From the NCBI GenBank assembly GCA_009377375.1, contig WHUE01000009.1, positions 1 to 64,000 on the forward strand: 64,000 nucleotides of DNA. Direction: 5' to 3'. The notes beneath the pieces were generated by a model. The model did no database searches. It was not told the DNA's origin and saw only the letters and a list, made by a program, of their open reading frames with translations. A program made the position numbers and the translations under genes. Source of the stretch: Alphaproteobacteria bacterium (GTDB lineage Bacteria > Pseudomonadota > Alphaproteobacteria > MPNO01 > UBA2964). Below, in pieces: positions 51,985-63,712 of this stretch (position 1 is its first letter; every line of letters starts with the position of its first letter).

Positions 51985-52608
51985 TCACGCAGTCTGGAGC
52001 AACCGCCCGCAAATTTCGGGAATCGACCTCGGTCTGAGGGAGACCCGTCCGACGTGCTTCCGCCCTTGCCCGGCAGTGTCAGTGCCCTCGTCCGAGGGAT
52101 CGAGAACGCTGAGGATCCGGTTCAGCAATGCGCGGGCGGAATTGTACGAGATTCCCAGCTCCGCGCCGATTTCTCCTGCACTCAAACCGCGATTGCAGGA
52201 ACACAGCATATGGATCGAATAGACCCACAGATTCAGCGGGATACGCGTGGAGGACAGCGCCGTACCGACGGTCACCGTAAACTGTCTGCGACAGTCTCCG
52301 CACCGCCACAGTCCGGCCCGGCCCGTCGTGGTATTCAGTCGCCGGGATGCGCCGAGCGTCATGCAGTGCGGACAAATCGTGACGGCGGGCCATCGCAAGC
52401 GCTCCATCATCAGACGTGCGGCGTCCTCGTCGATGAGGCAGCGGGCCAGGTCGTACGGCCGCTCGGTCGCGGTGTAACGGCGGAACACCGGAGTCTGGAG
52501 AGATGTATGCGCATCGGCGTTCCCATCGCGATACGGAAGAACGGGATCCGACCCGCGTGTAGCAGGCGCTTCGGAGCCGTTGCGAAACGCGTCCGGGCTA
52601 CCAGCCAT
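51985..52608 (-). CDS. IS1595-transposase-type zinc-ribbon/HTH protein without a nuclease domain (207 aa)
   Basis: Residues about 50-170 match the N-terminal part of IS1595-family transposases: a zinc ribbon with CPHC (Cys79, Cys82) and CGDC (Cys103, Cys106) around TTTGRAGLWRCGDCRRQF, then TVTVGTALSSTRIPL, LWVYSIHMLCSCNRGLSAGEIG and a helix-turn-helix-like LGISYNSARALLNRI. The ISXO2-type DDE nuclease that should follow is missing; the protein ends 37 residues later. It is either a truncated transposase or a domesticated DNA-binding protein. It starts at ATG 52608, overlapping the upstream small membrane-protein gene by 11 bases. Confidence 0.75.
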   Translation of the reverse strand: MAGSPDAFRNGSEAPATRGSDPVLPYRDGNADAHTSLQTPVFRRYTATERPYDLARCLIDEDAARLMMERLRWPAVTICPHCMTLGASRRLNTTTGRAGLWRCGDCRRQFTVTVGTALSSTRIPLNLWVYSIHMLCSCNRGLSAGEIGAELGISYNSARALLNRILSVLDPSDEGTDTAGQGRKHVGRVSLRPRSIPEICGRLLQTA

Positions 52609-52867
52609 TGTGAATCGCTTCTCGTTCGGCCGTGCCGGGCATGGCGGGGTATAACCCCTGATGGTACTCGATGCCGGGGTCGCGCGATGCGTTGCTGGAA
52701 TTGTTTCCTACCGCCGACGCAGCGCTATGGATTGACGTGTTTCTGTTGTCGTTTTCGTTGATGGCCGTCACGCGTCCGAATATCGCGTAGGCCGTCATGA
52801 TGCATCCAAGAATCAATATCGAGGAGATATGAAACCTGCATTTTCTCTCTTTCGATTCGTTGTACAT
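52598..52867 (-). CDS. small single-helix membrane protein, probably co-expressed with the zinc-ribbon protein (89 aa)
   Basis: Basic N-terminus MYNESKERKCRFH, then one membrane helix (ISSILILGCIMTAYAIFG), then an Asn/Ser/Ala-rich outside or periplasmic tail (NENDNRNTSIHSAASAVGNNSSNASRD). No family recognised. Its end overlaps the zinc-ribbon gene's start by 11 bases, so the two are probably co-translated. Tandem 9-bp repeats lie just upstream (52894-52911). Shine-Dalgarno match is weak. Codon use (AAT, AAC, ATA) is less GC-rich than the genome average. Confidence 0.5.
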   Translation of the reverse strand: MYNESKERKCRFHISSILILGCIMTAYAIFGRVTAINENDNRNTSIHSAASAVGNNSSNASRDPGIEYHQGLYPAMPGTAEREAIHNGW

Positions 52868-53408
52868 GTCATCTGACTTTTAATATGATCAATACGATCT
52901 TTACGATCTTTTGAGCTTGAAAGAACAAATAGTTTGCCGGGGAAGGCGTTTCCAGCCTCGGAAAATACCCAAGCACTGTCCGGCGGGCATCCCGCAGCCG
53001 CGGCATGGCCGTTCAGGTCGCATGTCCCCGAGATGCGAATCCAGTAGCAGCCGGCGTGTACATGCCTCGTGTGGAGGGTCCGCTCGCGCGCGATCCGGGT
53101 GACAAGGAAAGCCCTTCGCGCACGAACGCGAAGGGGCATGTCACGGCATTCTCTTGCCGGATGCGTAGTCGGAGCGGACGATGATCGGACGCTCATGACA
53201 GCAGCTCGACCTGCGCCTCGCGCATGGCCCTTCTGCCGGTGACGCTCGCCTGTATCCGGGCCATGCCTCGGCAGGTGCGCGCATACCCCGCACTGAGTAG
53301 TTTCCGAGTCTATGGCAATTCATCGTCTCTCCGTAAGGTTCCGCCCGCTAGCGACCACGCCGCCGAACGCGGTCCGGCTCCGTCGGCATCTCCGACAATA
53401 AGGAAACA
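52868..53408. other. intergenic region between the small membrane-protein gene and the OmpA lipoprotein gene
   Basis: 540 bases with no gene supported. It has an AT-rich segment near 52870-52930 holding the tandem 9-bp repeat, then GC-rich DNA of no recognised content up to the ribosome-binding site (AAGGAAACA) of the OmpA-type gene. Confidence 0.5.
52894..52911. repeat. tandem 9-bp repeat ACGATCTTT x2, candidate operator
   Basis: ACGATCTTT occurs twice end to end, 52894-52902 and 52903-52911, 27-44 bases upstream of the start of the minus-strand small membrane protein gene. A direct repeat in that position suits an operator, perhaps for the DNA-binding protein of the same pair. Confidence 0.5.
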
Positions 53409-53903
53409 ATGATGGACGGACTTCGGAGACACTTACGCGGTCTTGCCCCGATACTTGCGATCGGCCTGCTTGCCAGCTGCGCTCAGGAGACCGTGCCGCC
53501 GACGCAGGCGGCAGCGAGCCTCGCGCCGCAGGCGGCAACGAGCATGACACCGCACCTGGCGAGTGCCTGGTACCAGGTTCTTTTCAACACAAACAGTTCG
53601 GCGATCGATGAGCGGGGCCGGATGATTGTCAGGACCGTCGCCTACGTCGTAGCCAACGACGGTACGACACGAGTAACGGTGATCGGCAAGACGGACCGCG
53701 TCGGCGCGCCGCCCGCCAACCTCGCCCTGACGCAGAGACGGGCGGAGGCAATTCGCGATGCGCTCGTCAACATCGGAGTGCCGGCCGCGCGCATCGACAC
53801 GAGCTGGCTGGGCGAAGGCAAACCGGAGGTGACGACGGCTGACGATGTCGCAGAACCACGCAACCGTGTGGTCGACGTCACCGTCGTCCAGGCGCCCCGA
53901 TGA
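53409..53903 (+). CDS. OmpA-family outer-membrane lipoprotein (164 aa)
   Basis: The lipobox LLASC lies at about residues 20-24 (ILAIGLLASCAQE), then a Pro/Ala/Thr-rich linker and a C-terminal OmpA domain (about residues 60-162) with VLFNTNSSAIDERGRMIV, VTVIGKTDRVGAPPANLALTQRRAEAIRDALV and EPRNRVVDVTVV. The Asp and Arg that contact peptidoglycan diaminopimelate are in TDRVG and PRNRVV. It starts with tandem ATG codons behind AAGGAAA. The stop overlaps the next small gene by four bases. Confidence 0.88.
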   Translation: MMDGLRRHLRGLAPILAIGLLASCAQETVPPTQAAASLAPQAATSMTPHLASAWYQVLFNTNSSAIDERGRMIVRTVAYVVANDGTTRVTVIGKTDRVGAPPANLALTQRRAEAIRDALVNIGVPAARIDTSWLGEGKPEVTTADDVAEPRNRVVDVTVVQAPR

Positions 53904-54357: not shown

Positions 54358-54557
54358 CATGGTCGCAATGGAGCGTGCGGTATCGCGCGCCGCAGAACGG
54401 CGCCAACGGACTCCAGTAGGTATTTTCCGGGCCTGTCCGCGGACCGCGAAAATGCCAACTCTGCAATGTTCCCGCGGGAACGGAAGACAGATTCGGAACG
54501 GCAGCCGATCCGACGCTTCCGTCTCCCCCAACGATCTACAAATCCGGAGAAAACTCG

Positions 54558-54866
54558 ATGAACAAATACGTCGGCGTCCTGCTGGTCGCTCTCGCCTCGG
54601 GCCTCGCGCTCTCCTCCTGCGCAGAAACGCCAACCAGCGCGAGCACCGGCGGCTATATCGACGACAGCGCAATCACGGGCAAGGTCAAGAACGCCATTCT
54701 TCAGGATTCCGACCTCAAGGTGATGCAGATCCACGTCAAAACCTTCAAGGGCACCGTCCAGCTGAGCGGCTTCGTGGATACGCCGCGGATGGTCGCCCAT
54801 GCCGGAACTGTCGCAAACCAGGTAAACGGCGTCGTATCGGTGAAGAACGATCTCCTCGTCAAATAG
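54558..54866 (+). CDS. BON-domain lipoprotein (102 aa)
   Basis: The leader ends in the lipobox LSSC (about residue 21), so it should be lipid-anchored. Residues about 36-102 form a single BON domain: YIDDSAITGKVKNAILQDSDLKVMQIHVKTFKGTVQLSGFVDT and VNGVVSVKNDLLVK, as in OsmY/DolP-type proteins that bind phospholipid and help in osmotic or envelope stress. GGAGA precedes the ATG. Confidence 0.88.
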   Translation: MNKYVGVLLVALASGLALSSCAETPTSASTGGYIDDSAITGKVKNAILQDSDLKVMQIHVKTFKGTVQLSGFVDTPRMVAHAGTVANQVNGVVSVKNDLLVK

Positions 54867-54961: not shown

Positions 54962-55879
54962 TCACATGCCCGCCCGGCGCGTCATAAGCTCGATCGACAC
55001 ATAGCGGTTCTGAGGTTCGCGCACGCCATCGGCGGTTGCCACCAGCGCATCGCGCTGGCCGCGTGCCTCGGACGTGATCGCGTTGCGCGTGATGCCGCCG
55101 ACGGTCAGGTAGCGCGCGACCGTTGCAGCGCGGCGCTCCGACAGGCCCATATTGTAGGCATCGGTCCCCGACGAATCGGCATGGCCGATCAGGTGGATGC
55201 CCTGGTTGCTAGCCCGGGCGCGCTGGACCGCCTGGTCGATAACCTGGCGGGCGGCGACCGAGAGCCCCGACCTGTCCCAATCGAAGAACACGCGATAGAG
55301 ATTGCCCTGCGGCATGGCGGGAGCGGGCGCCGCCGCTACAGGAGGAGGCGTCGTCGCCACAGGAGGCTGCACGGTCACCGCCGCCATTGCCGTCTCGGTC
55401 GCGAGCATGGCCCGCCAGAACCCGTCCTTGCAGGCGGCGATATGGTCTTGCTGATGACCTTCCTCCTGCTGCTCCACCCAGCAGTCGAAATTGCTTTGCG
55501 CGCTCGCGGCATTTCTGGGCGATCCTTGCGGGGCGCCGGCAGCGAAGGCCGTCATGAGGCGGGCTCGCGCGGTCCGCAGCTCCGCCGCCTTGCCGTCGTC
55601 CGCGATCCGCCGCTTGGCCATATCGTCCGGGGCGGGCGGCGTGCCGGCGGCAGAGGCCATCGCCTTGTCCGCGTATGTCACCGCATCCCTCATGTCATAC
55701 ATCTCGTCGGACTCGTAGTTGGCCAGATCCCGGTAGTCGCGCGCCAGGTAGTGATTGAAGTCATTGTTCGTCATGTCGACGAGGTTCATCTGCGGAACGC
55801 GTTGCTCCGCGCACGCCGTCAGCAGAATTGCCGGCAACGCCACCACGGCCAGCCGACCTATTCGCGATATCGTTGTCAT
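54962..55879 (-). CDS. OmpA-family lipoprotein with long N-terminal region (305 aa)
   Basis: Lipobox LLTAC at about residues 19-23 (PAILLTACAEQ). The N-terminal half is helical with FNHYLARDYRDLANYES and FDCWVEQQEEGHQQDHIAACKDGFWRAM, a pattern shared with other alphaproteobacterial OmpA lipoproteins. A Pro/Ala-rich linker (about residues 170-195) leads to an OmpA domain with YRVFFDWDRSGLSVAARQVI, IHLIGHADSSGTDAYNMGLSERRAATVARYL and REPQNRYVSIEL. It probably ties the outer membrane to peptidoglycan. GGAAG precedes the ATG at 55879. Confidence 0.9.
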   Translation of the reverse strand: MTTISRIGRLAVVALPAILLTACAEQRVPQMNLVDMTNNDFNHYLARDYRDLANYESDEMYDMRDAVTYADKAMASAAGTPPAPDDMAKRRIADDGKAAELRTARARLMTAFAAGAPQGSPRNAASAQSNFDCWVEQQEEGHQQDHIAACKDGFWRAMLATETAMAAVTVQPPVATTPPPVAAAPAPAMPQGNLYRVFFDWDRSGLSVAARQVIDQAVQRARASNQGIHLIGHADSSGTDAYNMGLSERRAATVARYLTVGGITRNAITSEARGQRDALVATADGVREPQNRYVSIELMTRRAGM

Positions 55880-56152
55880 CTCTTCTTCCTCTCATGGTTG
55901 GAAGGCCCGCCGGCACATCGGCCGCCAGGTGGGAATATCCGATTCCGTTTCTGCGAGACGCGTCCTCTTCCCCATTAACGGACGCCGACTCTGCCCCTTC
56001 AGCCGCGTGAGAGCGGTCGCTACCCAGCCTTCGCGCCGGTACGCGCGGTCGTGCCGAGGGCTATAGTGCAAATTATGGGGCCGGCGACACGGCGGCGGTA
56101 GACTCGGAAAGTACCTACCGAAAGTCAGCCGGCGACGGGTGCCGGCGAGCGG

Positions 56153-59100
56153 TCAGTCGGCCTCCGGGGAAGCGGCGGCAACCGCGAGCCGCGCCAGCGC
56201 CGGCAGGGACTTCGTTCCTGTCCTCATCATGACGGCGGCCCGATGGTTCTCGACGGTACGCTGGCTGATGCCGAGGTCCGCGGCGATATTCTTGTTCGGA
56301 TGGCCGGAGAGGACCAGGTCCATGATCTCGCGCTGGCGCTGCGTGAGCCCGCCGATGCGGCTCGCCGCCTCCACCCGCCAAGCGGCCTGCTTGGCCGCGT
56401 CGCGGGACCGTCCGAGCGCGCGGTCGACACTCGCGAGCAGCCCGTCGACGCCGATCGGCTTTTCGATGAAGTCCGACGCGCCCGCTTTCATCGCCTGAAC
56501 CGCCATCGCCACGTCGCCCTTGCCGGTGAACATGATGGTCGTCAGCCGACGGTCTTCCCTGCCCAGCCGCTCCAGCAGTTGGAGCCCGCTGATTCCCGGC
56601 AGGACAGCATCGATCAGGAGACACGCCTCGCGGCTCGGAAGGTCCGCTTCGAGGAATGCCTCGGCGCTCGAATAGGTTTCGACGGTGCGGCCGTCGTCCT
56701 CGAGCACGCGGCGAATATCATCCAGCACGCGGCTGTCGTCGTCGATGACATAGACGGCGGGCGAGGCGGCTCCGCCGTCCGCGCCGTTTTCGCGCGGCCC
56801 GCGCGCGGCGGACGGGAACCGTGGCGACGGCAGGAAACGACGGATGGCGTGCGTGAGCTCCTCCAGCTTCACCGGCTTGGTGAGGTGCGTGCAATCCTGC
56901 TGCGCGATGTCGCGCAGGGCTTCGGCGGATATATCGCCGGTCAGTACGGCGACCGGGACGGGGCGACGAAGCCTGTTCCGCGCCTTCTCGGCGAACTGGA
57001 GCCCGTTCATGCCGCCGGGCAGGTTGTAGTCCGCCAGGATGAGGTCGGGCTGCACCGTTTCCGCGGCCATCAGCGCCAGCGCGCGCGGCCCATCGGGCGC
57101 GGTGACCACGCGATGGCCTTCCTCGCTGAGCGCCACTTCGAGGATGTCGCGTATCAAGGGATCGTCGTCGACGACCAGGATCACGCCCGCGCGGCGCGCG
57201 GCGCTCTCCGCTGCATCCGTTCCGCTGCGCGGGGCGCTTTCGCGCCGCGATGCCGGTTCGCCCGGCGCCATCGTGACCTCGATGGCGAAGACCGACCCCT
57301 TGCCGGGAACCGAGTGGACGCTCACCCGATGGTCCAGCAGATCCGCGAACCGCTGCACGATGGAAAGCCCGAGACCCAGTCCGCGGGACGGGTCGCGTGC
57401 GGGGTTGTCGATCTGATGGTACTCTTCGAAGATCTCTCGCTGTTCCCCTTCGGCGATGCCCATCCCCGTGTCCCAGACCTCGATGCGCAGCTTTCCTTCG
57501 CGCCGGCGGCAACCGAGCAGCACCCTGCCGCTGCGGGTGTATTTCACCGCGTTCGAAAGCAGGTTGCGGATCATCTGTTCGAGCAGATGCGGATCGCTCC
57601 GTATCGAGCGGCCGCACGGGACCACATGCATGGCAAGTCCCCGCGATCCCGCCAGATAGGTGAATTCCTCCCCCAACCGGTCGAGCAGACCGCCGATCGG
57701 GAACTCGTCCGGCTCGGCGCGGATCGTGCCCGCCTCGATCTGGTTCAGGTCGAGCAGCGCGTTCAGCATGCGCGACATGGCCCCCAGCGCCTCTCCGAGC
57801 CGCCCGAGCAGCTTCCGCGCCTTCTCGTCCTTCGCGGACTTCGCCAGCAATCCCTGAAGCAGGAAGAGCGTCTGAAGCGGCTGGCGAAGATCGTGACTCG
57901 CGACGGCGAGAAAGCGCGATTTCGCGACGTTGGCCAGATCCGCCGTCCGCTTGGCCGCGTCCAGCGCGCCCGCTTCGTTCCGCCGCTCGGTGATGTCGGT
58001 AAAGGTGATGACCACGCCCTCGACCCCGTTGTCCTCCGCGCGGTAGGGCAGTATGCGGCGGCTGTACCAGACCCCGCCGCGGCCACCGACCTCCCGCGCG
58101 ATCGGCGTGTGGGTCCGCAGCACCGCCTCGGCATCCTCCAGAAGAGCGCTGTCGGCGGCCAGCGAGCGAAGGTCGACGAGCGGCCGTCCGACATCGCTCG
58201 GAATGATGTTGAAGAGCGCCCTGGTGGCCGGCGTGAAGAAGCGGATGTTGAGGTCGGGATCGAGGAAGAGCGTCGCGACGTCGGTGCTGTACAGCACGTT
58301 CTGCAGATCGTTGGCGGTCGACCGCTCCCGCTCCAGCGTTTCGTGGAGCTGGCTGTTAAGGGCCGTCAGTTCCTCGTTAAGCGATTGCAGTTCCTCCTTG
58401 GAGGTTTCCAGCTCCTCGTTCGCCACCTGATATTCTTCATTGACGGACAGGGCCTCCTCGTTCACCTCCCTCTGCCTTTGGATCATCTCTTCAAGGCTGC
58501 CGTTGGCTTCCGACAGCTCGCCTCTCACGGCCTCGAGCTCCTGTTCGAGCTCGGCGACCCGCGACGCGTCCTGCGGCGTGAGAGGACCGTCCGGCTTGCG
58601 CTCGCGCTCCGGCTCGTCGACGAAGCACACCAGATGCAGGTTCTCGCCCTCCCTCGAAACCGGATGCACGACGATGCTGAAGGAGAGCGGCTTGCCGTCC
58701 TGTATCGTCCGGCCGCCCGAAACCTCGACACGGGCGTTCTCCTGAACGGCGCGCTGGACCGCCGATCTGAGCTTGGTCCGCACGTCGTCACGCGCCATGG
58801 CGAAGAGATCGTGTGTGGGCGGGCCCGGCACGGCGCGCAGATAGCGGTCGGTCGGTCCCAGCGAATAGAGGCATTCATGCTCGCGGTTGATCAGGACCGC
58901 AGCCGGCGCATAGCTCTCCGTCACCATCCGCTGACACAGGTCGGCGAACACGGCGCGGTTCGAGCGTGACCGGTCCTGTCCGGCGCGCGCAGAAACGCGG
59001 AGGCCTTCGCCGGCGCCCGTCGCGAATTCGAGATCTGCCAGACGGCCCTGACCGATGTGCCGGTAGAGCCGCGCCGGCTTGGAAATCACCTTGAAGCGGC

Positions 59101-60547
59101 CATCGACCTTGCCCGCCGTCTCCGAGGCGCCGAGAAAGAGAACGCCTCCGTCGCGCAGGGCGAAATGAAAGCGTGAGATGACCGTCGCCTGGGCCTCGGG
59201 CTGCAGGTAGATAAGAAGGTTTCGACAGGAGATCAGGTCGAGCCGCGCGAATGGCGGATCCGTCAGCACATCGTGCACCGTGAAGACGACCGCCGCGCGC
59301 AGCTCGGGCCTGACCCTGTATGCGTGTTCCTCCTTCGCGAAGAAGCGGGCGAGCCGTTCCGCCGCCACTTCCGCCTCGATCGTTTCCGGGTAACGACCCT
59401 CGCGGGCGGTGGCGACGGCGTCCGCATCGACATCGGAGGCGAATATCTGCAGCTTGACGTTGTGCTTCGACGCCTTGATCTGCTCCTGGAAAAGCATGGC
59501 GAGGGAATAGGCCTCCTCGCCCGTGCTGCATCCGGCGACCCATATGCGGAGGGTGGAACCGGCCGCGTGTTCGCGAACCAGGTCGGGAACGACCTTTTCC
59601 GCCAGAAGATCGAACACCGCCTGGTCGCGGAAGAAGCTGGTGACGTTGATGAGCAGGTCCTTGGCGAGAAGGTCCAGCTCGTCCGGGTCGCTTCGCAGAA
59701 CATCCAGATACCGGTCCAGGTCGTCGGACTCGATCGCCGCCATCGCCATGCGCCGCTCGATCCGCCGGCGCAGCGTGCCCTGCTTGTATAGCGTGAAGTC
59801 GTGGCCGGTCTCTGCGGAAAGCAGGTCGATGACCGCAGGCAGCCAGTCCCGCGCGTCGCCCTGCGGGACCGCCGCGCTCCGCATGCCCATGAGCGCCATC
59901 CGCCGGTGGTACTTGACCAGCGCCTGGGGAATCTTCGCCACCGGAAGCACCAGGTCCACGCTGCCCGTCCTGATCGCGTTCCGCGGCATGCCGTCATGGC
60001 CGGCCTCGCCGGGGTCCTGCGCGATGACGAGCCCGCCGGTTTCCTTCACGGCCTTCAGTCCAAGACTGCCGTCGGCACCCGTTCCCGACAGGATCACGCA
60101 GACGGCGCGCTCGCCGAACTCGTCGGCCAGGGAGTCCAGCAGGAAATCGAACGGCAGGCGGACGTGACGCCCCGGGGGCTTCGAAAGCTGGAGCGCGCCG
60201 TCGCGTACCGAGAGATAGACCCCGGGGGGAATAACGTAGATGCAGTTGCGCGCCGGCCGCATCCCGTCGGCGGCGTGCTCTATCTTCATCGACGTATGCG
60301 GGGCCAGCAGATCGACCATCATGCTCTGGTGCGTCGGATCGAGATGCTGGACGAGGATGAATGCGATGCCACTGTCGGGCGGCATGGCGTCGAAGAACTT
60401 CTGGAAGGCCTCCAACCCGCCGGCGGACGCGCCGATTCCGACCACCGAGAGGCCGACAGGCTCAGCCGACGACGCGTGTCCCGAAGAGACACGCCCGCGG
60501 CGCGGCGCAGTAGAGGCGCCGTCGCGTGCACGCCGGCGACCGGCCAT
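56153..60547 (-). CDS. giant hybrid signalling protein: CheB-CheR-PAS-histidine kinase-receiver-receiver-LuxR HTH (1464 aa)
   Basis: Domains in order: CheB methylesterase (about residues 31-215; Ser41 in GIGASAGG, His68 in VQHLDPTHQ, Asp159 in SGTGADG), CheR methyltransferase (about 235-500; SAM site WVAGCSTGEEAYSLA), a coiled coil (about 660-745, VNEEALSVNEEYQVANEELETSKEEL), PAS (about 745-855), HisKA with His885 (ASHDLRQPLQ), ATPase (about 985-1095; RNLLSNAVKY, DTGMGI, GLGLGLS), receiver 1 (Asp1173 in ADYNLPGG), receiver 2 (Asp1313 in LIDAVLPG) and a FixJ-type HTH (about 1398-1450). All catalytic residues are kept. No membrane segment, so it is cytosolic. It combines adaptation enzymes, kinase, phosphorelay and transcription output. 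It starts at ATG 60547 behind GGGGGAG. Target genes are unknown. Confidence 0.93.
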   Translation of the reverse strand: MAGRRRARDGASTAPRRGRVSSGHASSAEPVGLSVVGIGASAGGLEAFQKFFDAMPPDSGIAFILVQHLDPTHQSMMVDLLAPHTSMKIEHAADGMRPARNCIYVIPPGVYLSVRDGALQLSKPPGRHVRLPFDFLLDSLADEFGERAVCVILSGTGADGSLGLKAVKETGGLVIAQDPGEAGHDGMPRNAIRTGSVDLVLPVAKIPQALVKYHRRMALMGMRSAAVPQGDARDWLPAVIDLLSAETGHDFTLYKQGTLRRRIERRMAMAAIESDDLDRYLDVLRSDPDELDLLAKDLLINVTSFFRDQAVFDLLAEKVVPDLVREHAAGSTLRIWVAGCSTGEEAYSLAMLFQEQIKASKHNVKLQIFASDVDADAVATAREGRYPETIEAEVAAERLARFFAKEEHAYRVRPELRAAVVFTVHDVLTDPPFARLDLISCRNLLIYLQPEAQATVISRFHFALRDGGVLFLGASETAGKVDGRFKVISKPARLYRHIGQGRLADLEFATGAGEGLRVSARAGQDRSRSNRAVFADLCQRMVTESYAPAAVLINREHECLYSLGPTDRYLRAVPGPPTHDLFAMARDDVRTKLRSAVQRAVQENARVEVSGGRTIQDGKPLSFSIVVHPVSREGENLHLVCFVDEPERERKPDGPLTPQDASRVAELEQELEAVRGELSEANGSLEEMIQRQREVNEEALSVNEEYQVANEELETSKEELQSLNEELTALNSQLHETLERERSTANDLQNVLYSTDVATLFLDPDLNIRFFTPATRALFNIIPSDVGRPLVDLRSLAADSALLEDAEAVLRTHTPIAREVGGRGGVWYSRRILPYRAEDNGVEGVVITFTDITERRNEAGALDAAKRTADLANVAKSRFLAVASHDLRQPLQTLFLLQGLLAKSAKDEKARKLLGRLGEALGAMSRMLNALLDLNQIEAGTIRAEPDEFPIGGLLDRLGEEFTYLAGSRGLAMHVVPCGRSIRSDPHLLEQMIRNLLSNAVKYTRSGRVLLGCRRREGKLRIEVWDTGMGIAEGEQREIFEEYHQIDNPARDPSRGLGLGLSIVQRFADLLDHRVSVHSVPGKGSVFAIEVTMAPGEPASRRESAPRSGTDAAESAARRAGVILVVDDDPLIRDILEVALSEEGHRVVTAPDGPRALALMAAETVQPDLILADYNLPGGMNGLQFAEKARNRLRRPVPVAVLTGDISAEALRDIAQQDCTHLTKPVKLEELTHAIRRFLPSPRFPSAARGPRENGADGGAASPAVYVIDDDSRVLDDIRRVLEDDGRTVETYSSAEAFLEADLPSREACLLIDAVLPGISGLQLLERLGREDRRLTTIMFTGKGDVAMAVQAMKAGASDFIEKPIGVDGLLASVDRALGRSRDAAKQAAWRVEAASRIGGLTQRQREIMDLVLSGHPNKNIAADLGISQRTVENHRAAVMMRTGTKSLPALARLAVAAASPEAD

Positions 60548-60687: not shown

Positions 60688-60846
60688 CTAGATCCGCCCG
60701 AGCAGCAGAAGCACCAGGACAATGACCAGAACGACGCCCAACCCACCGGTCGGGAAATAGCCCCAGTTCCTGCTGTGAGGCCATGCCGGCAGTACGCCGA
60801 CCAGCATGAGCAGCAGTATGACGATTATAATGGTTCCGAGACTCAT
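60688..60846 (-). CDS. DUF3309 membrane peptide (52 aa)
   Basis: Too short to be obvious but clear: MSLGTIIIVILLLMLVGVLP, then WPHSRNWGYFPTGGLGVVLVI and a final helix ending LLLLGRI. The central AWPHSRNWGYFPTG is the diagnostic DUF3309 block. GGAGCGAACG precedes the ATG at 60846. It is encoded 27 bases after the DUF3185 gene, so the two form an operon. Such peptides are often stress-inducible in alphaproteobacteria. Confidence 0.9.
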   Translation of the reverse strand: MSLGTIIIVILLLMLVGVLPAWPHSRNWGYFPTGGLGVVLVIVLVLLLLGRI

Positions 60847-60873: not shown

Positions 60874-61092
60874 TCAGGCGCGCTGCTTGCGGACTCCGAA
60901 CGTTGCAAGCAGGCTGCCTCCGACGGCGGCGGCGATGCCGACGGCAAAGTACCACATGGTCTCGTTCGTGTAGCGACCGGTCATCGTGTCGGAAAGCCGT
61001 TCCAGCGGCGCATTCGTGGAATCGTACACCACCGCCAGCAGCGCCGCGCTGATCGCCAGGAGGGCGATACCGATAATGCGTTTCATGTCCAT
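60874..61092 (-). CDS. DUF3185-type small membrane protein (72 aa)
   Basis: Two helices: KRIIGIALLAISAALLAVVYDS near the N-terminus and MWYFAVGIAAAVGGSLLATFG near the C-terminus, with LERLSDTMTGRYTNET between them. Length and helix-loop-helix pattern match DUF3185. It starts at MDMKRIIG (61092) with GGAGA upstream. The frame extends far upstream but that part is not protein-like. It is followed by the DUF3309 gene. Confidence 0.85.
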   Translation of the reverse strand: MDMKRIIGIALLAISAALLAVVYDSTNAPLERLSDTMTGRYTNETMWYFAVGIAAAVGGSLLATFGVRKQRA

Positions 61093-61624
61093 GCGAGTTC
61101 TCCTGCTGGTCGTCGTCTGCCGGCTCAACCCCGGCTGCACGCATTCGAATGCGACGATCCGGCTGCCATCCGGATCGTCCCCGAAACTGCCTGTACGTGG
61201 CATGGCCGATAACGACGCTGCCAACGCCGGAAAGGGACCGACCAGAAACGCCGCAAGCGGGACGAGGGCGACGAAACGGGCACGGCGTCCGAGAAGCATT
61301 TTCGCCGCTTTCAATTTCCAGCAGGCCTTTCTCGCCAAATTCAACACGACGAAGAGCTTGCGCCGTACCGTCATTCGCGTTCCGGTTCGGGCTCTCCCGA
61401 ATAGCGTTCAGGAGCAGCCCCGATGGACTCGGGCTACGATCCGTCCGCCGGGAAATATACCGGGCAGGGAAGCAGCAACGGTAGGTTCGGAAACTACTCA
61501 GTGCCGTGAAGACGCTGCCCGCCGGGGTACTGGAGTCCGATGCCAATGGGGCACAATTGGGGCCGCAAATAGCGTGCTCTCTGAACGATCGCCGTGTGCC
61601 CGCCCGACGAAGGGGGAACAGGGG
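61093..61624. other. intergenic region upstream of the DUF3185 gene; no gene supported
   Basis: 530 bases between the DUF3185 gene and the large membrane-protein gene. Overlapping open frames on both strands here give Arg/Pro-rich, non-conserved sequences without a ribosome-binding site, so they are taken as chance. A promoter for the DUF3185-DUF3309 pair must lie here. Confidence 0.5.
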
Positions 61625-62896
61625 CTAATTCCCACTCGACACGCCGTGCGATACCTCATGAGCCGAAAGCCGCCTCTGTTCATACAGCTTCATGTGCGTT
61701 GACTGCATGGAACTCCTGTCGAGCACGTCGCGCAGGATTATGCCGTCCTTCAGGAACAGGCCGAGGCTTATCTCCCCCGTCGTAGATCGCCCCGCGATGA
61801 CGACCGGATTTCCGGTCAGTGCGACGTCGATCGATGGCGCGGGCGAAGCGGCAAACGAGAACACCTGCAGGGACACCGCCGCGTGCAGCACCTGCAGCCC
61901 GATCACAGTCCCTAGCAGAAACTGGACGGGACGACCTTCTCTGCGAGGTCCGGCGAGCAGGAGGCATATGACGCTGATCGCAAGGGGAATCGTGGGCAGA
62001 AGGTATTTCCACTCCAGCGGGAACTTCAGGTAAAGCACGAGGTGATAGACCAGCGCCGCGGCAAAGACTGTGGGTAGCGGGGATATGAAGAAATGGTCGC
62101 TCCTCGCCAGGCGGCTGTCGCGTATGGCCAGAAGGGCCGCGCCGGTCAGAAGCAGCAGGCTCGGCAGCCCCCAGATCAGCAAATTGCCGTGCAGAAAGCT
62201 GCCGGCGTGCCGCAACAGCTGGAATTCGCCGGGGTCGTATGGGCGCATGGCATTAATCACGCTGCCGTAGTGCAAGGCGGACGGCAGATAGGCGATGAGC
62301 GAAATTCCTGCGAACACGGTCGCCCCGGCCAGGTAGCGCGAGAGACGGGGCGGGTCGCGCCACGCCGGCCACAGCGGAAAGATGACAAATAGAACAGCGC
62401 AGACCGGCAGGTAGCCGAGGCGACTGGCCACGCAACACGCAAGGGCCACGCCGGCCCACGCGCAGCGTCGGCTGTGTAAGCACCAGACGCCCAGCGTCCA
62501 GAAGAACACCGCGTAAATATGATCCATTGCGGTCGCCGCCAGGATTATCCACGTGGGATTGACGCCGATGGCCGCCAGGACCAGCAATCTGACCGGCGGG
62601 GGGCAGTATCCGGACAGAAGCTCCCACCATAGCCAGAGGGTGGCCGCAGCCAACGCTGCCGAAATGAAGTTGGCCGCATAGTACCCGCCCAGAGCGTACG
62701 CCGCCCCGATCGTCAGTTCCGGTAACGGGTTTCCCGGGCCCCTTGATGGCGCGTATTCGAAAGACGTGGCAAGTGAATGCCACGTCTCCAACATCGCGTA
62801 GGTGTCGTTGTCGTTGCCGGGCCCAAGTATGGCGAACGCGCAGTAGAGGGAAAGAAGCAGCCCAACAACAAGAACGGGGCTCGAACCTGCCTTCAC
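61625..62896 (-). CDS. polytopic membrane protein, GT-C glycosyltransferase-like (423 aa)
   Basis: About ten membrane helices. After the first helix (VLVVGLLLSLYCAFAILGP) comes a loop GPGNDNDTYAMLETWHSL with an acidic pair, the position of the catalytic acidic motif in GT-C enzymes such as PMT/ArnT. A large loop after the helices and a C-terminal soluble tail follow. The family is uncertain. No ATG lies near the start of the conserved region; GTG 62896 (VKAGSSPVLVVG) is the best start. Its role could be to transfer a lipid-linked sugar. Confidence 0.6.
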   Translation of the reverse strand: MKAGSSPVLVVGLLLSLYCAFAILGPGNDNDTYAMLETWHSLATSFEYAPSRGPGNPLPELTIGAAYALGGYYAANFISAALAAATLWLWWELLSGYCPPPVRLLVLAAIGVNPTWIILAATAMDHIYAVFFWTLGVWCLHSRRCAWAGVALACCVASRLGYLPVCAVLFVIFPLWPAWRDPPRLSRYLAGATVFAGISLIAYLPSALHYGSVINAMRPYDPGEFQLLRHAGSFLHGNLLIWGLPSLLLLTGAALLAIRDSRLARSDHFFISPLPTVFAAALVYHLVLYLKFPLEWKYLLPTIPLAISVICLLLAGPRREGRPVQFLLGTVIGLQVLHAAVSLQVFSFAASPAPSIDVALTGNPVVIAGRSTTGEISLGLFLKDGIILRDVLDRSSMQSTHMKLYEQRRLSAHEVSHGVSSGN

Positions 62897-63187
62897 CGGC
62901 TTCCGGCTCCGCGACTGACGAAGCGGAAATCCGTATGCGCGAGCCCCGCTTCCACGGGCGGCAGCAGGTAGCCATGCGTCGGGGACGTCTCGGCATCCCG
63001 CCACAGAAATCCTGTTGCCACTCCAGTTCCTCTCCGTTCCCCCGAACGCGCCCACCCTTAGCACGAAACAGCGGCAAACGTCCCGGTGAGCCGATCCACG
63101 GGGCAGCCGGGAGGGAACAAAACCGCCTCCCCGGAGTTTCTCCTGAGCGGGAGTATCGTGCCCCGCGACGACGAGGGAAGGTCTCCC
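62897..63187. other. short non-coding gap
   Basis: 290 bases between two divergently transcribed genes, without a gene that can be supported. It should hold promoters for both. Confidence 0.4.
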
Positions 63188-63712
63188 ATGGCGGAACACG
63201 AGCAGGACGAGTCCGGCATGTGGTCGAGCCGCTCGCATCCGGTTAGCGAGGACATGGGCTTTCAGACTGCCGAGTGGACGGTGGAGCGGATCGCCTGGGG
63301 TGCTCTTTTCGGGCTGGTCGTACTGGCCTGCCTCGGCCTGTTCTCCGTCGGGCCGCTGAGCTCGACCACGATCCGGGACGGAACGGGCCGCCTTCAGGCG
63401 GAGCTGGACCGGTTCTACCGGAATGGCGCGACGGAGAACATGCGGCTGCGGGTGGAGGCCGGCCCCGGCGACGAGACGCGCATCCTGCTGGGCGCGGCCT
63501 TCCTCGACGCCTTCACGGTGGAGGCCATGCAGCCTGAGCCTTCGGAATCGCGGAGCGTACCGGGCGGTCTTGAGCTCCTGTTCCGGCGCGGCGAGAACGC
63601 GCCGCTGTCGGTCTACCTGTCGCTGCGGCCGGATGCCATCGGCTTCACACGGTCGGAAATCGGCCTGGCCGGCGGTGGGAAGGTGGCGCTCGGCCAGTTC
63701 ATCTATCCCTGA
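63188..63712 (+). CDS. single-helix membrane-anchored hypothetical protein upstream of a DUF421 gene (174 aa)
   Basis: Cytosolic N-terminus (MAEHEQDESGMWSSRSHPVSEDMGFQTAEWTVER), one membrane helix (IAWGALFGLVVLACLGLFSVG), then an extracytosolic beta-rich domain with LQAELDRFYRNGATENMRLRVEAGPGDETRILLG. The start is ATG 63188 with GGGAAGG upstream. This arrangement (small membrane-anchored protein, then DUF421) is conserved in alphaproteobacteria (recalled). Ten bases separate it from the DUF421 gene. Function is unknown. Confidence 0.7.
   Translation: MAEHEQDESGMWSSRSHPVSEDMGFQTAEWTVERIAWGALFGLVVLACLGLFSVGPLSSTTIRDGTGRLQAELDRFYRNGATENMRLRVEAGPGDETRILLGAAFLDAFTVEAMQPEPSESRSVPGGLELLFRRGENAPLSVYLSLRPDAIGFTRSEIGLAGGGKVALGQFIYP

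Follow-up and report, generated by a model that had tools for sequence, protein, structure and literature searches.

The minus-strand gene at 56153-60547 of the window (the whole analysed stretch of 64,000 nucleotides) encodes a single-chain hybrid histidine kinase that carries CheB and CheR domains at its start and its own FixJ-type helix-turn-helix (HTH) output at its end, and a DNA box, AGnnTCGGAAAnTACTCA, which is very probably bound by HTH domains of this type according to comparative sequence evidence, stands upstream of its neighbours. We predict a local stress/envelope regulon around the hybrid kinase gene, and judging from the box sites the flanking genes are quite likely to be targets of the kinase in this genome. 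The whole model, in which a self-contained stress regulator governs a box regulon and is methylated in cis on its linker helix, is one that we would hold with moderate confidence.

The ORF begins with ATG and runs in a single frame of 1464 aa without an internal stop. A frameshift or fusion artefact was ruled out, because single-ORF orthologs of the same order occur in independent assemblies and on complete plasmids, so that no stop or frameshift separates the parts, a point on which the first-pass annotation had asked for confirmation. The gene and its parts are as follows.

56153-60547, minus strand: CheB-CheR-PAS-coil-PAS-HisKA-HATPase-REC-REC-HTH hybrid kinase, 1464 aa (ORF, Pfam and residue alignment)
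59918-60442, minus strand: CheB methylesterase domain, aa 36-210, triad S41/H68/D159 (Pfam, residue conservation)
59075-59833, minus strand: CheR_N (239-288) and CheR (301-491) methyltransferase, aa 239-491 (Pfam, residue conservation)
58613-58909, minus strand: first PAS fold, aa about 547-645 (AlphaFold2 and Foldseek; Pfam below cut-off)
58292-58573, minus strand: helix of about 94 residues, aa 659-752 (AlphaFold2, alignments)
58370-58438, minus strand: Glu pairs 704/705, 711/712, 718/719 and 725/726 of the linker helix
57989-58306, minus strand: PAS_10, aa 748-853 (Pfam)
57272-57925, minus strand: HisKA (875-940) and HATPase_c (985-1092), H885 (Pfam, residue conservation)
56834-57190, minus strand: receiver 1, aa about 1120-1238, D1173 (Pfam, residue conservation)
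56426-56755, minus strand: receiver 2, aa 1265-1374, D1313, FixJ-like (Pfam, residue conservation, PDB match)
56183-56347, minus strand: LuxR/FixJ-type HTH (GerE), aa 1401-1455 (Pfam, residue conservation, PDB match)

Every Pfam domain called from CheB to the HTH was above its gathering cut-off, and the catalytic CheB and CheR domains, full kinase, two receivers with intact Asp and FixJ-type output that had been read into this chain were all confirmed. The CheB domain has its Ser-His-Asp triad; CheR combines the all-alpha N domain with a SAM-binding domain and keeps F306-R307-D308, G339-C340, G343, E345, D372, N443 and Y447; HisKA, HATPase_c and receivers lie in one chain with H885, N999, the G-boxes, D1173 and D1313 intact, as in a hybrid histidine kinase; and the output, with the recognition helix SQRTVENHR, has FixJ as its best PDB match (5xso, E 2e-38). 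Across 35 full-length homologues the active-site residues were essentially invariant, the exception being one CheB, and the HTH (0.83) and the linker helix (0.81) were the best-conserved regions. CheB starts at aa 36, and Pfam found no receiver ahead of it of the kind that chemotaxis CheB carries at its N-terminus. The Pfam scan also found no HPt domain in the hybrid kinase, as a BarA/ArcB-type phosphorelay would have; H885 must therefore reach D1313 directly or via another protein, and the word phosphorelay, used in the first-pass annotation, does not apply in its strict sense. Of the linker described there, a coil and a PAS domain, PAS_10 and the long helix are present, but a second PAS fold had been overlooked, which Pfam recorded as PAS_4 at E=0.04 only. 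An AlphaFold2 model of residues 495-870 (alignment of eight orthologs; mean pLDDT 74.6) places this fold at about 547-645, followed by a single helix of about 94 residues (659-752), whose Glu-pair stretch is modelled at pLDDT of about 94-96, and then by PAS_10; the Foldseek matches of the model were tandem-PAS proteins, such as FixL and LOV-PAS-HK.

In its REC-HTH output the hybrid resembles FixJ (Bradyrhizobium and S. meliloti) and StyR (1yio, E 5e-35), but here the output is fused to its own kinase and to CheB-CheR; the chain scores 218 on the FixJ NCBIfam equivalog, below the cut-off of 255, and its predicted targets are stress and envelope genes, not fixK. The kinase-REC1 part matches NF041832 of the NahK/ErcS-type hybrid kinases at 357 bits, below the 400-bit cut-off, whereas the N-terminus and output differ. 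CheB-CheR fusions to kinases are common, and the HTH-less CheB-CheR-PAS hybrid kinases (e.g., the paralog G000:C110) have the same core of CheB, CheR, Glu-pair helix and PAS, with about 40% identity over the shared part, but they have neither the second receiver nor the HTH and mostly end in a different kinase part. The R. centenum CheB-CheR hybrid RC1_3878 (PMC2890560) is counted among these HTH-less hybrids by its name in that paper. Literature searches for CheB-CheR hybrids and for the motif string turned up no functional study, and in the searched literature we found no paper on what CheB-CheR-kinase fusions methylate or regulate.

Palindromic dyads upstream of the orthologs were just GC-rich ones in slight excess, and because of this weak signal k-mers were counted de novo instead in the 600-bp upstream regions of 35 orthologs. 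The word TCGGAAA was present in 22 of these regions against 2.5 expected, the shared upstream word aligns to GTCGGAAACTACTCA, and the box common to the regions is AGnnTCGGAAAnTACTCA. Its reverse complement, TGAGTnGTTTCCGA, agrees with the FixJ SELEX consensus GTAGTTTCCC as well as with the fixK site TAAGTAATTTCCCTTA, both published FixJ sites (PMC4999443), so that the box is FixJ-like on sequence comparison alone; relative to the SELEX class, the hybrid's box is extended, reading TCGGAAAnTACTCA, and has AG four bases 5'. That the box might be a general motif was rejected, as the reversed pattern gave 5 matches against 105 for the box at the same loci. Motif discovery and some of the tests drew on the same ortholog loci; the count in the own genome, a scan of the window with a position weight matrix (PWM) and the genome-wide association in genomes outside the discovery set are independent tests.

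The PWM, built from 145 sites outside the window, found exactly five sites in it at 20.8-32.2 bits, the best shuffle reaching 13.5, and all five obey the orientation rule towards a gene start. These sites and the genes ahead of which they stand are listed below.

52598-52867, minus strand: ORF of 89 aa without a Pfam match, possible target
52954-52971, plus strand: box AGCCTCGGAAAATACCCA, 27.9 bits, about 90 bp ahead of the minus-strand ORF 52598-52867
53294-53311, minus strand: box AGACTCGGAAACTACTCA, 31.8 bits, about 100 bp ahead of the OmpA lipoprotein gene at 53409
53409-53903, plus strand: OmpA-domain lipoprotein, predicted target
54417-54434, minus strand: box AGGCCCGGAAAATACCTA, 20.8 bits, about 130 bp ahead of the BON gene at 54558
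54558-54866, plus strand: BON-domain lipoprotein (OsmY-like), predicted target (Pfam)
54962-55879, minus strand: OmpA-domain lipoprotein, predicted target (Pfam)
56100-56117, plus strand: box AGACTCGGAAAGTACCTA, 22.2 bits, about 225 bp ahead of the minus-strand OmpA gene 54962-55879
60688-60846, minus strand: small DUF3309 membrane protein, its gene lying between those of DUF3185 and the kinase
60874-61092, minus strand: DUF3185 membrane protein, predicted first gene of the kinase run (Pfam; start codon inferred)
61483-61500, plus strand: box AGGTTCGGAAACTACTCA, 32.2 bits, facing the minus-strand run of DUF3185, DUF3309 and the hybrid kinase

The site of the kinase run at 61483 is the weakest fit of the five: the distance is 113 bp to the longest ORF start (61374) but about 395 bp to the start codon that DUF3185 probably uses (61092). 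The specific box at these promoters lends support, at the level of sequence, to the earlier suggestion that the flanking envelope and stress genes may be the targets. The own genome (4.36 Mb, 373 contigs) contained five box matches at one mismatch or fewer, three of them within an 8.5-kb part of the window; an exact match at C305:1883 falls inside a RidA-like ORF and is probably due to chance. Farther along the window, a long membrane-protein-like ORF without a Pfam match occupies 61625-63268 on the minus strand.

The box has the same kind of position on plasmids. In 13 annotated stretches, whose gene tables were entered by hand and some of which overlap, 77 of 79 boxes were intergenic in DNA that is 21% intergenic, 71 had AG four bases 5' (AG was outside the search pattern), and 61 faced a gene that starts no more than 350 bp away (median 110 bp), against 29 in the opposite direction. 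The boxed genes encode PRC-barrel, SHOCT, slipin, BON, universal stress protein, CsbD, DUF3309 and Dps proteins; phosphoketolase, 6-phosphogluconate dehydrogenase, the acetate-kinase operon and an alternate F1F0 ATPase; and alcohol dehydrogenases, oleate hydratase, cydAB and a single receiver divergent from the kinase. A boxed plasmid island holding a set of pentose-phosphate, phosphoketolase and acetate-kinase genes, with an alternate F1F0 ATPase and stress genes, was seen in Lichenicola (L236), in Sphingomonas (L235) and on a Polymorphobacter plasmid (L237, L238), which has two near-parallel copies of the boxed island. The target genes, fermentative and redox on plasmids and envelope or osmotic-type here, suggest energy or envelope stress as the signal.

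Across 385 genomes, the exact box was found in 16, namely in 12 of 17 gene carriers and 4 of 368 others (Fisher p 6e-16, kinship ignored). The box tracks the HTH subfamily (E below 1e-19; 19 of the 385 genomes): 14 of 19 genomes with this HTH had the exact box against 2 of 366 without it (p 1e-19, kinship ignored); of the five HTH genomes without an exact box, some have 2-mismatch versions. It is unlikely that the box belongs to another regulator travelling with the same stress islands. Such a regulator would fit the other regulators present in some neighbourhoods and the same HTH found in separate proteins in G286, G077, G349 and G153, but in the own genome (assembly 93.5% complete) this HTH occurs just once, in the hybrid (E<=1e-14), the box resembles FixJ sites as the hybrid's HTH resembles that of FixJ, and of the four genomes that have the box and lack the HTH part of the hybrid, G286 and G077 encode the same HTH in a separate protein (the remaining two are G261 and G366). 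That the hybrid is a chemotaxis protein is very improbable: 'chemotaxis protein CheB' is the usual database label of the orthologs, but the plasmid neighbourhoods shown have no annotated CheW, CheA or MCP, it is to stress and energy genes that both neighbours and boxes point, and the output is a DNA-binding domain. In G286 (L203/L320, contig C83) the separate protein has 224 aa and no receiver and lies beside a PRC-barrel-like gene; in G077 (L309) a 377-aa remnant-kinase/REC/HTH protein is divergent from an HTH-less CheB-CheR hybrid kinase. G349 (e.g., L215, L216), with 17-18 exact boxes over many contigs and six HTH copies, is a large expansion of the regulon.

The four Glu pairs of the linker helix are spaced exactly seven residues apart, with E in 35 of 35 orthologs (one D), and pairs are also present in relatives of about 40% identity. 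Spacing by seven on a long helix is likewise a feature of the Tar/Tsr MCP adaptation helices (EExx[A/S/T]), and the linker helix has this MCP-like substrate pattern; Tsr is methylated at 297, 304 and 311 within EExxA[S/T], the MCP consensus (PMC1079850), and for a non-receptor, PhoP, methylation of consecutive acidic residues by CheR has been reported (PMC8546571). The hybrid is not an MCP: its helix connects PAS folds and precedes a class I kinase, and the pairs fit EExx[ST] but the small residues before the pair in the full MCP pattern are missing. We surveyed 67 PAS_10 relatives, of which 58 have intact CheR residues, six have a deleted or decayed CheR and three are split-frame or contig-edge sequences. 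All 58 with CheR had at least four EE pairs seven apart (runs of 4-7), while none of the six without it did (p 1e-8, kinship ignored; CheR losses perhaps amounting to five events), these (L144, with FDT..H; L145, L163, L216, L119, L301) retaining 0-2 pairs; the three incomplete relatives kept six. The pairs were lost in L163 and L301 despite an intact CheB triad, and in L143 CheR and most pairs were kept with the CheB triad decayed (F/S/T), which indicates that the pairs follow CheR.

This is expected of a cis substrate and less well of a spacer role, and on these sequence patterns we give about an even chance to CheR and CheB modifying the linker helix in cis; adaptation by methylation, as the first-pass annotation had put it, is so far backed by the correlation between Glu-pair helix conservation and CheR. 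The alternative, in which CheR and CheB either serve ordinary chemoreceptors in trans or are vestigial, with the Glu-rich helix as no more than a rigid spacer, is possible and somewhat doubtful. The own genome does have a separate CheB/CheR pair, which probably marks a chemosensory pathway, and the helix could be conserved because of its coiled-coil geometry and, once CheR is lost, decay as an unneeded spacer. The retention of the active-site residues in all 35 homologues, bar one CheB, argues that CheR and CheB are not vestigial, a spacer needs no paired Glu at fixed heptad positions, and in three of the six relatives without CheR (L163, L301, L144) the pairs were lost with the hydrophobic core leucines intact (4/4 positions).

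The domain order, the intact residues, the box with its position and orientation, its association with the HTH and the dependence of the Glu pairs on CheR, all read from sequence, lead us to propose that the hybrid kinase is a putative soluble, self-contained stress regulator. Its two PAS folds would sense an intracellular signal, upon which the kinase may autophosphorylate at H885 and pass phosphate to both receivers by one of the routes above. Phospho-D1313 would then dimerise the FixJ-type output, which would bind directly to AGnnTCGGAAAnTACTCA about 50-250 bp upstream of envelope and stress genes and of its own gene run, and presumably activate rather than repress them. The linker helix would connect the two PAS domains and join them to the kinase, and putative methylation of its Glu-Glu pairs by the fused CheR, reversed by CheB, would reset the kinase set point as in a chemoreceptor.

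To our knowledge, methylation-based adaptation has so far been known from chemoreceptors, and if our model is true, it extends to gene regulation, and a plasmid-borne stress/energy regulon gains its regulator. More tentatively, this would be a one-chain adapting pathway with a methylation memory on the linker helix of a soluble kinase that doubles as its own transcription factor, and the same cis-methylated Glu-pair helix may be in use in every CheB-CheR-PAS fusion. The work names four Glu pairs as a hypothetical substrate and provides a DNA box together with a list of predicted target promoters, and the predictions are testable in ordinary soil bacteria.

The architecture had been thought rare, which proved wrong: it is common in Alphaproteobacteria and on plasmids. 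The GTDB scan gave eight full-length relatives, and among 385 species sampled from the class, the domain-order count found 13 with the full order in one frame and four more in which it is split or shortened, so uniqueness was rejected. The full-length order was also found on about 18 plasmids, with Methylocystis, Phyllobacterium, Acidiphilium, Lichenicola, Sphingomonas and the betaproteobacterial Caballeronia among the hosts; outside the class the order is known from plasmids only (Caballeronia, and Roseateles XES5, which is marked UNVERIFIED). No copy was found in 12 other genomes of the source's family, and the 27 genomes searched from its order, the own genome among them, contained no further full-length copy. 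The plasmid location suggests transfer of the gene between orders; this is suggested and not proved, since the tree of 35 orthologs is poorly resolved (15 of 32 inner branches open). Orthologs or paralogs broken by a stop or frameshift were seen at L129, L142, L154 and L306, and at L154, on a Methylocapsa plasmid, CheB is apart from the remainder in two adjacent frames. In an Agrobacterium/Neorhizobium-type group (L153, L158, L161, L163), the gene is part of an exopolysaccharide cluster, where its neighbour is a LuxR-type regulator in place of stress genes.
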